64,000 bases of DNA from Mucilaginibacter geliditolerans (lineage in GTDB: Bacteria > Bacteroidota > Bacteroidia > Sphingobacteriales > Sphingobacteriaceae). The stretch is from contig NZ_JACHBY010000001.1 in NCBI RefSeq assembly GCF_014200495.1, positions 868,001 through 932,000 on the forward strand, in the 5' to 3' direction. Positions 20,868-50,927 of the stretch are shown here, piece after piece. A program made the translations under genes and the position numbers. The notes beneath the pieces are model-generated. The model was not told the DNA's origin. It was given only the letters and a program-made list of their open reading frames with translations, and ran no database searches. Positions within the stretch are counted from its first letter, which is position 1. Each line of letters begins with the position of its first letter.

Positions 20868-20891
20868 CTATACAAAAATAATTCCAATTTT

Positions 20892-20906
20892 GCTAACTTT
20901 GTTAGC
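20892..20906. promoter_or_regulatory. Palindromic operator candidate at the DUF763 start
   Basis: GCTAAC-TTT-GTTAGC is a perfect palindrome with 6-bp arms ending one base before the ATG. It contains TAACTTTG (20894-20901), an exact match to TAnnTTTG, so a bound protein would cover the -7 box. The Y-family polymerase gene has the same palindrome at 49571-49589. Confidence 0.65.
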
Positions 20907-22109
20907 ATGAAGCGTTCGGGAAGTGCTGATCTGCCATTACATTACGGCTATGTACCCATCTGGCTTGCAGAGCGGATGGCAAAATTGGGGCTGGCCATTG
21001 TAGAGAATATACTGATAGATTATGGTAAGGACGATCTGCTACGCCGCCTGAGCGATCCTTTCTGGTTTCAAAGTCTGGGTGCGGTAATGGGTATGGACTG
21101 GCATTCGTCGGGCATTACAACCTCTGTTATGGGCGCTTTAAAGCGGGCGGTAAATCCGCATAGTAAGGAGCTGGGCATTTACATCTGCGGCGGTAAAGGC
21201 AAATACTCCAAACAAACCCCTGACGAGCTCCTTAAAATAAGCGAAAGAACCGGCCTTGATGGCAATTACCTGGTTAAATGCAGCAAGCTTAGCGCCAAGG
21301 TTGATAACACAGCCATACAGGATGGCTTCCAATTATACACCCACAATTTTATTTTAAGCGATACCGGCAAATGGGCAGTTGTGCAACAAGGCATGAGCGA
21401 TTTGAGCAGTACAGCGCGCAGATATCATTGGTTATCGGAATCCTTAACCTCTTTTGTGGATGATCCGCATACATCTATCTACGGGCAAAATACCGGCTAC
21501 ATTTTAAATATGGCCGATAAACAAGCTGATGGCTCAAGAAACGGCGTAATGCAAATAGCCGCTGAAAACCCAGAGCGTATGCTAAAGGAGATCAGCAAAC
21601 TGGTAATGCCATCGCACCATGATGTGCGGGCAAAAGATGTCGATCTTAAAAGATTGGGCGCCGTGCTTTGGCTGGCACATGAAAAACAGCCATCAGATTT
21701 TCAGGACTTGTTATTATTACAAGGCTTAGGCCCAAGAACATTACAATCATTGGCATTGGTTAGCGAAGTAATCCATGGCACATCATCACGGTTTAAAGAC
21801 CCTGCACGATTTTCCTTTGCACATGGTGGCAAGGACGGGCATCCCTTTCCTGTACCCATAAAAGTTTATGATGAAACCATCAGCACCCTGCAAACCGCGG
21901 TTTATAAAGCTAAACTAGGCCAATCAGAAAAAGCTGAAGCTATAAAAAGACTCTCAAAAATTGCAGAAAACGCCGAGAAGGGTTTTACCCCCAATGCCAA
22001 CTTTGATAAAGTAATTGAAGAGGAACGCAGTAGCTCATGGAAATATGGCGGTAGGACAGTAATGGGTAGAGCTAAGCCACCCGTACAACAGCAATTAAAA
22101 CTATTCTAA
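20907..22109 (+). CDS. DUF763 family protein, possible DNA-repair factor
   Basis: A 400-residue soluble protein of the DUF763 family, found in archaea and some bacteria. It starts with the typical KRSGSADLPLHYG and carries MDWHSSGITTSVMGALK, STARRYHWLS and, near residue 270, LLLQGLGPRTLQSLALVSEV, which looks like a helix-hairpin-helix DNA-binding motif, then PARFSFAHGGKDGHPFPVP. The function is not established; a role in DNA metabolism is inferred from the HhH-like motif and from sharing a palindrome with a lesion-bypass polymerase gene. Flanked by inverted family D elements. The start is fixed by the conserved N-terminus. Confidence 0.85.
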   Translation: MKRSGSADLPLHYGYVPIWLAERMAKLGLAIVENILIDYGKDDLLRRLSDPFWFQSLGAVMGMDWHSSGITTSVMGALKRAVNPHSKELGIYICGGKGKYSKQTPDELLKISERTGLDGNYLVKCSKLSAKVDNTAIQDGFQLYTHNFILSDTGKWAVVQQGMSDLSSTARRYHWLSESLTSFVDDPHTSIYGQNTGYILNMADKQADGSRNGVMQIAAENPERMLKEISKLVMPSHHDVRAKDVDLKRLGAVLWLAHEKQPSDFQDLLLLQGLGPRTLQSLALVSEVIHGTSSRFKDPARFSFAHGGKDGHPFPVPIKVYDETISTLQTAVYKAKLGQSEKAEAIKRLSKIAENAEKGFTPNANFDKVIEEERSSSWKYGGRTVMGRAKPPVQQQLKLF

Positions 22110-49570: not shown

Positions 49571-49589
49571 TTGCTAATTTTATTAGCAA
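49571..49589. promoter_or_regulatory. Palindromic operator candidate of the polymerase gene
   Basis: TTGCTAAT-TTT-ATTAGCAA, perfect 8-bp arms around TTT, 9 bases before the GTG start codon. The only two arm/spacer differences from the DUF763 palindrome are at mirror positions and keep the symmetry (C...G replaced by T...A). Confidence 0.65.
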
Positions 49590-49598
49590 TTTTGATAG

Positions 49599-50927
49599 GT
49601 GAATCAAAACTCTATCCAGGTAAAAGCCGAGCCGCGTGTGCTGTTTGTTGATATGAACAGCTTTTTCGCCCGTTGTGAACAGCAGGTGAACTTTTGGCTG
49701 CGCAACCGCCCGGTGGGTGTTTGCGTGTATACAGGCAAGTACGGCTGCGTAATATCGCTATCAACGGAGGCAAAGGAGCGCGGACTGAAGGCCGGCATGC
49801 GTCTAAATGATGTAATGGCTGTTTGTCCGGATTTTATCCCGGTTGAAAGTAACCCTGTCCGTTACCGCGAGTTCCACACCAAAATAATAAATGTATTAAA
49901 ACAGTATTGCCAGGATGTGGTGCCCAAAAGTATTGATGAAGCCATTATTAACCTTACCAATTACGACCATAGCGACCCGCTCACCATAGCCCGGAAAATC
50001 AAGCGGGAAATACTGGAAAAAGTGGGTGACTACCTGGAATGCTCCGTCGGTATCGCTCCTAATGCCTTTTTAGCCAAGCTGGCATCGGTACGGGGTAAAA
50101 AAACAGGCGGCTTAATGATGATAACCCCGCAAAATATTGACGAGATTTTAAGCGGGTTAAAGCTGGGTGATCTGCCGGGCATTGGGGGCAACATGTCGTA
50201 CCGGCTGGAACGTGCAGGCGTAAAAACCCCGCTGGAGATGCGGCATACCTCACCTGAGCGGTTAAAAGCCATTTTTAAAAGTATCGACGGCATTTACTGG
50301 CATTACCGCCTCAATTTTATTGAAACCAATATAGTGGCGCATGATTACCGTGGCATGCAGGCCATGCGACAGATCTCCGCAGAAAAGAGGAAGAATATAG
50401 AATATATCGACCAGTTATTCATGACCCTGTGCCTTACGCTTGAAAAACGAATGGTACACCATAAATTCTATTGTAAATCCATTGGTTTTACTGCCCGCTA
50501 TGAGGATGGTACCCGTTGGGATGATGGTTTTGCCATAACCCTGCCGGTACAAGATGCTGTGAACCTGATGCGGATGATTCGGCTGCGGGTGGATAAGTTT
50601 GAGAAATTAAGCGGTACAGGCCCGGTGTTTAACAATAGCATCACCCAAATGCGGGTAGCCGTCACCAATTTTGTGAATACCGGTAATATGTTTTACAGCT
50701 TGTTTGATGATATTGAAAGACAGGATACCGCACTTAAGACCATGCATGAGATTAAAAGCAAATTTGGTTCAGACAAACTGATACGTGCCATGGAAATGAC
50801 AGACAGCAAGGTAATTAAGGATGTAATAGGCTTTGGCTCGGTTAAGGATCTAACAGACCTGGATTATAAAATGCCTGTTGCGGAGTCATCTAACCCTCCA
50901 CAGGATGAAGAATATATGGAGTACTAA
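49599..50927 (+). CDS. Y-family lesion-bypass DNA polymerase
   Basis: A 442-residue translesion polymerase (DinB/UmuC family). It starts with the palm strand VLFVDMNSFFARCEQQVN (Asp18 and Phe-type steric gate), has YTGKYGCVISLSTEAKERG, the catalytic SIDEAI, LAKLASVRGKK and the HhH region GLKLGDLPGIGGNMSYRL. The C-terminal part carries a little-finger domain and an acidic tail. The sequence is closer to UmuC-like than to DinB in the finger region, so the exact class is left open. The start is GTG 49599. The family is usually damage-inducible; a palindrome shared with the DUF763 gene lies just before the start. Confidence 0.92.
   Translation: MNQNSIQVKAEPRVLFVDMNSFFARCEQQVNFWLRNRPVGVCVYTGKYGCVISLSTEAKERGLKAGMRLNDVMAVCPDFIPVESNPVRYREFHTKIINVLKQYCQDVVPKSIDEAIINLTNYDHSDPLTIARKIKREILEKVGDYLECSVGIAPNAFLAKLASVRGKKTGGLMMITPQNIDEILSGLKLGDLPGIGGNMSYRLERAGVKTPLEMRHTSPERLKAIFKSIDGIYWHYRLNFIETNIVAHDYRGMQAMRQISAEKRKNIEYIDQLFMTLCLTLEKRMVHHKFYCKSIGFTARYEDGTRWDDGFAITLPVQDAVNLMRMIRLRVDKFEKLSGTGPVFNNSITQMRVAVTNFVNTGNMFYSLFDDIERQDTALKTMHEIKSKFGSDKLIRAMEMTDSKVIKDVIGFGSVKDLTDLDYKMPVAESSNPPQDEEYMEY

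Follow-up and report, generated by a model that had tools for sequence, protein, structure and literature searches.

Candidate SOS operators precede the DUF763 gene and a Y-family DNA polymerase gene in Mucilaginibacter geliditolerans

Introduction

DUF763 (PF05559, which we take to be the same as COG1415) is a protein family common to archaea and bacteria; of 296 Bacteroidota genomes, only 19 have it. In the literature that we searched for DUF763 or PF05559, only table listings with no function were retrieved, and COG1415 was not found. In a 64,000-nucleotide stretch of the M. geliditolerans genome (the window), a palindrome stands directly before a DUF763 gene, and a similar one stands before the gene of a Y-family DNA polymerase. 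This raises the question of which regulator, if any, reads the two sites, and of what such control would say about DUF763.

Results

Two similar palindromes in the window

Both palindromes were confirmed where the original prediction had put them, before the DUF763 and polymerase genes (Table 1). Zero bases separate GCTAACTTTGTTAGC from the DUF763 ATG at 20907, and the corresponding GCTAATTTTATTAGC (49573-49587) has the polymerase GTG 11 bases downstream, at 49599. The shared 20-mer TTTTGCTAANTTTNTTAGCA, allowing up to two mismatches, had just two matches in the window, where 0.04 were expected, and one of 100 shuffles reached two. For the bare core CTAA-N5-TTAG the window showed no excess over chance: there were 2 sites against an expectation of 1.56, and 44 of 100 shuffles reached 2. 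Across the whole 6.5-Mb genome, exact GCTAANTTTNTTAGC had three matches, compared with one for the reversed control: the two window sites and a third before a 145-aa ORF.

Table 1. Features of the two loci in the window.
Feature	Position	Strand	Remarks
LexA-type operator GCTAACTTTGTTAGC	20892..20906	.	Core CTAA-N5-TTAG at 20893-20905; abuts DUF763 start codon; motif identity from PMC8565304
-7 promoter element TAACTTTG (consensus TAHHTTTG)	20894..20901	+	Inside DUF763 operator; conserved HTTTG spacer
DUF763 gene, 400 aa, PF05559	20907..22109	+	Pfam; helix-hairpin-helix signal at about residues 262-290
C-terminal QLKLF codons	22092..22106	+	Match to sliding-clamp motif QL[S/D]LF or QxxLF
LexA-type operator TTGCTAATTTTATTAGCAA	49571..49589	.	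Core CTAA-N5-TTAG at 49574-49586, before Y-family polymerase
-7-like element CAATTTTG, one base off consensus	49587..49594	+	Downstream edge of polymerase operator
Y-family DNA polymerase, 442 aa, IMS, PF00817	49599..50927	+	Pfam

By sequence, both palindromes are instances of CTAA-N5-TTAG, the operator published in 2021 for the non-canonical LexA of Bacteroidetes, an HTH-S24 repressor (Sanchez-Osuna et al. 2021, PMC8565304). According to the text consulted of that paper, the dyad was examined in EMSA experiments with the repressor of P. actiniarum; mutations in the dyad abolished binding, and base changes in the spacer left it unaffected. In two species mitomycin induced the predicted targets, except for recA in one of them, and Sphingobacteriaceae was among the families with large regulons (PMC8565304).

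A repressor encoded elsewhere in the genome

The original prediction had remarked on the absence of LexA from the window. This is no gap, because a repressor of the published kind is encoded elsewhere in the same genome. The canonical domain LexA_DNA_bind (PF01726), positive in 10 of 14 control genomes, had no match in the genome, and two S24 proteins exceeded the Pfam cut-off. One of them (C1:177160-177924) combines HTH_3 and Peptidase_S24 domains and has the operator before its own gene. Inspection by eye, with no alignment, found ASAG, GDSM and VYKR in it, which would provide the Ala-Gly site and the Ser and Lys residues. This C1 repressor had a match in 97 of 100 genus genomes (strong in 94, weak only in three), including all 79 good ones, and the motif precedes its orthologues in 29 of the 29 loci parsed, of the 30 closest fetched. 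Sequence and conservation together support the earlier proposal that one dimeric regulator would read both window sites.

Overlap of operator, promoter and start codon

The -7 promoter element has the reported consensus TAHHTTTG, with G at -5 (PMC6847099). The proposal that such a box lies within the DUF763 palindrome was borne out in the genus, where the spacer of the site was HTTTG in 68 of 68 cases (CTTTG in 32, ATTTG in 23 and TTTTG in 13; G never came first), because the operator there overlies the -7 box. Among 46 DUF763 sites from named genomes, 44 had an HTTTG-type spacer and two ended in TCG. From this geometry, DUF763 transcription is predicted to start at about 20906, one base before the ATG, giving a leaderless mRNA. 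TTTG lies 3-5 nt before the polymerase start codon in 28 of 30 loci, and transcription of this gene is predicted to start at the GTG, again giving a leaderless mRNA. In Flavobacterium psychrophilum, leaderless mRNAs are reported to be a minority, at 5.5% (PMC9723704). Superposing operator, -7 box and start codon in this manner may be an economical arrangement for a gene that is at once leaderless and SOS-repressed.

The same spacers bear on the argument that the two window sites differ at mirror positions through compensatory change, which failed. Spacers of relatives are not mirrored: beside the DUF763 counts above, positions 1 and 5 were complementary in only 7 of 30 polymerase sites. The C-G pair of the DUF763 site arises here because G is fixed at spacer position 5 by the -7 box, and A or T stands opposite this fixed G in about half of the relatives, so that no compensatory pressure is apparent. 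Judged from these comparisons, the mirror-symmetric spacer pair is a coincidence of this genome.

Conservation of the sites in relatives

A shared operator was expected to recur before both orthologues in relatives, and within the genus it did. DUF763 is present in 74 of 100 genus genomes, and of the 75 loci from these, 73 have the motif at the start codon: 30/30 of the closest, 38/40 of those further away and 5/5 of the loci left over (four partial or broken copies). The two exceptions are L244, in which the left half-site is changed (TTAA) and TAACTTTG is retained, and L247, which has neither half-site. Close orthologues of the polymerase occur in about a third of genus genomes, and the motif preceded all 30 of the closest genus loci. 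Both window genes have CTAA-N5-TTAG in a promoter position that is conserved in relatives.

For related genera, the expectation held in part for DUF763. In a set of named genomes, consisting of the best 80 of at least 587 DUF763 loci, 46 loci had the motif at most 40 nt from the start, and 46 of the 55 CTAA-N5-TTAG sites in 853 kb of sequence from these 80 loci were at most 15 nt from the DUF763 start. The distance between motif and start ranged from 0 to 9 nt, so the motif was not merely copied along with the coding sequence. It preceded DUF763 in all 21 loci of L107-L127 (Mucilaginibacter, one Pararcticibacter and one unassigned MAG), in 16 of 18 loci labelled Pedobacter, and in several, not all, of the loci that we take, from organism names, to belong to Chitinophagaceae. 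In contrast, it was found in none of 18 loci labelled Flavobacterium, Epilithonimonas, Chryseobacterium or Flavobacteriaceae, and GGA-N5-TCC was likewise absent before DUF763 in these 18. SOS control of DUF763 would therefore be lineage-specific.

Genome-wide sites and the candidate regulon

Listing the motif across the genome, as the original prediction had suggested, showed sites before repair genes, including recA, radA, dinB and imuA-imuB. RCTAAN5TTAGY was not enriched, with 33 sites where the reversed control had 46. The extended form TTGCTAAN5TTAGCAA, with up to two mismatches, was enriched (78 against 39 for the control). As neither the bare core nor RCTAAN5TTAGY is enriched, the evidence is mainly one of position and conservation. 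TTGCTAA-N5-TTAGCAA has four perfect genomic copies, none more than about 30 nt from a start codon; the genes concerned are those of the window polymerase, a DinB, a PA0069/SplB-like radical SAM protein and the 145-aa ORF.

A rough ORF scan (ORFs of at least 100 aa) split the 33 RCTAAN5TTAGY sites into 11 inside ORFs, 11 intergenic ones without a recognised adjacent repair gene, and 11 others. The last group includes the sites of DUF763, the window polymerase, dinB, the 145-aa ORF and a SocA/Panacea gene, and one site between the HTH_3-S24 repressor gene and a divergent GIY-YIG gene. The remaining sites of this group lie before recA (45 nt), radA (57 nt), a DnaQ/GIY-YIG exonuclease (22 nt), imuA-imuB (28 nt) and the SplB-like gene (12 nt). 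Together with dinB, these are core SOS genes of the same genome that have the motif 12-57 nt before the start.

The 145-aa ORF (L003:1062-1496; G000:C6:407992-408426) is present in 28 of 100 genus genomes, and all 28 loci have the operator at the start codon. It had no match in Pfam or NCBIfam, and is probably an undescribed SOS gene.

Three further loci were observed in passing. At L105:2-2907, imuA-imuB and a divergent operon of three genes have a single operator between them, the operon encoding proteins of 90 aa and 157 aa and, at its end, a protein labelled AlkB-like by eye; by virtue of this shared operator, alkB may share a regulon with imuA-imuB. The SocA/Panacea-domain gene (L017:988-1473) is antitoxin-like and has an operator 29 nt upstream. 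In 28 of 30 RmuC loci (L014:1501-1521, L321-L350), CTAATATTTTTATC is retained ahead of the start; it differs from the operator by one base and is either a weak LexA site or another element.

The DUF763 protein and its gene context

The DUF763 protein of the window is a full-length PF05559 member, above the Pfam cut-off at 450 bits. When 70 homologues from Bacteroidetes, rhizobia and archaea were aligned, conserved motifs stood out, among them DWHSSG, GGKG, ARRYHW and DPA...HGGKDG, and Pfam HHH was detected in 46 of these 70 at a permissive cut-off (E<=1; best 6.3e-5). For this HhH-like stretch, the match to RuvA was non-significant. The predicted structure (mean pLDDT 78) matched no solved fold, and no catalytic fold was identified in it.

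QL[S/D]LF or QxxLF is a common sliding-clamp binding motif (PMC12309361). Of 80 Bacteroidetes DUF763 proteins, 78 have a C-terminal QLxLF, one of these with one extra residue, and the other two end in QLRMF and QMRLF. In the structure model, residues 386-400 have pLDDT under 50, as for a flexible tail, which would make the pentapeptide accessible. All 34 loci without the operator have QLxLF, so that recruitment to the clamp would predate SOS control or extend beyond it. The motif, itself short, was absent from all seven non-Bacteroidetes DUF763 proteins checked.

Among the 80 Bacteroidetes loci, a gene of the Fpg/Nei family was found within 3 kb of DUF763 in eight, and one of the endonuclease V family in four, directly after DUF763 in L158 and L183 (one representative of each family was identified by Pfam). 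The most frequent neighbour was the DUF4142 family (16 of 80), and the commonest neighbours were not repair genes. On a Rhodopseudomonas plasmid typed as conjugative (L208:5387-7257), alkB lies directly upstream of DUF763 with a one-base overlap. DUF763 had no directly adjoining repair gene in five other stretches of annotated alphaproteobacterial plasmids, and on several such plasmids its neighbours were transporters and unrelated genes. With DUF4142 the commonest neighbour and five plasmid stretches lacking an adjacent repair gene, gene context lends weak support. Of 15 alphaproteobacterial plasmid loci, four (L209, L212, L213 and L214) carry GAAC-N7-GAAC 53-70 nt upstream of DUF763; this motif is the LexA box of alphaproteobacteria in reverse.

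Discussion

We read both palindromes as SOS operators of the HTH_3-S24 repressor, with DUF763 and the polymerase induced by damage and DUF763 recruited to the clamp for repair or tolerance, and give this reading a probability of about 0.87. Shown here are the two sites and how far they are conserved, a repressor gene that has S24 residues and is preceded by its own site, the other members of the regulon, and the clamp motif; binding and mitomycin induction come from work on other species (PMC8565304). Induction in this organism, the start sites, clamp binding and the role of DUF763 are what we infer. As far as sequence and conservation reach, they support the DNA-damage regulon of DUF763 and translesion polymerase that the original prediction had suggested.

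In the mechanism that we propose, a dimer of the HTH_3-S24 repressor, a non-canonical LexA, would bind CTAA-N5-TTAG at both genes, covering the -7 box at DUF763 and sitting just upstream of the -7-like box at the polymerase; RNA polymerase would thereby be blocked. DNA damage would activate RecA and lead the repressor to cleave itself at its Ala-Gly bond, upon which DUF763 and the polymerase would be induced as leaderless mRNAs. The DUF763 protein, through its HhH region and QLKLF, might then join the sliding clamp at damaged forks and help in repair or tolerance.

The DUF763 palindrome could instead be only a conserved -7 element and the start-codon context of a leaderless gene, bound by no repressor and resembling the polymerase site partly by chance. 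The invariable HTTTG spacer in the genus fits the -7 consensus, L244 lost a half-site and kept its -7 box, and RCTAAN5TTAGY is unenriched genome-wide. However, the consensus needs neither the C before TAA nor the TTAG after TTTG, and 73 of 75 genus loci keep both; the polymerase, repressor and 145-aa ORF sites share the dyad despite varied spacers, and it is identical to the one used in EMSA of the repressor from P. actiniarum (PMC8565304). We therefore judge this account very improbable. That another dimeric regulator reads both sites, for example the second S24 protein at C12:8287, also seems highly unlikely given that the C1 repressor has the same dyad before its own start in every parsed genus locus and a match, nearly always strong, in almost all genus genomes, even though there are two S24 proteins above the cut-off and paralogy in the repressor group has been reported (PMC8565304).

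A further alternative accepts SOS control and concerns the protein, which may be no repair factor at all, its QLxLF and HhH signal being incidental and its role lying, for example, in nucleotide or RNA metabolism. The lack of an identified catalytic fold, the non-repair genes that are its commonest neighbours in the 80 Bacteroidetes loci, and the transporters and unrelated genes adjoining it on several annotated alphaproteobacterial plasmids would agree with this, but the near-universal QLxLF ending (78/80), the HhH signal and some repair-gene neighbours speak against it. We hold it to be unlikely, while giving it appreciable weight.

Returning to the reading of both palindromes as SOS operators, the operator and the repressor class are already known (PMC8565304), and it is DUF763 and the 145-aa orphan as SOS genes that appear to be new. 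The words DUF763, COG1415 and RmuC are absent from the main text of that paper, and a prior listing in its supplements is possible. The operator is the first regulatory lead on DUF763 found in the literature searched, and the value of the finding is as a functional lead for this family: SOS operator, clamp motif, HhH signal and some repair-gene neighbours are separate lines that point the same way. On this basis we propose DUF763 as a clamp-recruited DNA-repair factor. The fuller picture, to which we give even odds, is of a repair factor tethered to the clamp by QLxLF in Bacteroidetes, SOS-induced in Sphingobacteriaceae and some Chitinophagaceae, and forming with the 145-aa orphan an undescribed arm of the Bacteroidetes SOS response.

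Compared with PolC-like clients carrying a C-terminal QL[S/D]LF (PMC12309361), DUF763 has the same pentapeptide pattern at its extreme C terminus; unlike these, it has no polymerase or other known client domain, and its binding to the clamp is predicted. A difference from the published regulon is that operator, -7 box and start codon overlap at DUF763, an arrangement undescribed in the text of PMC8565304 that was consulted. The genome and the published regulon have in common the dyad, the spacer length and an HTH-S24 repressor preceded by its own site, as well as the targets recA, dinB, imuA-imuB, an splB-like gene and a DnaQ/GIY-YIG exonuclease (PMC8565304).
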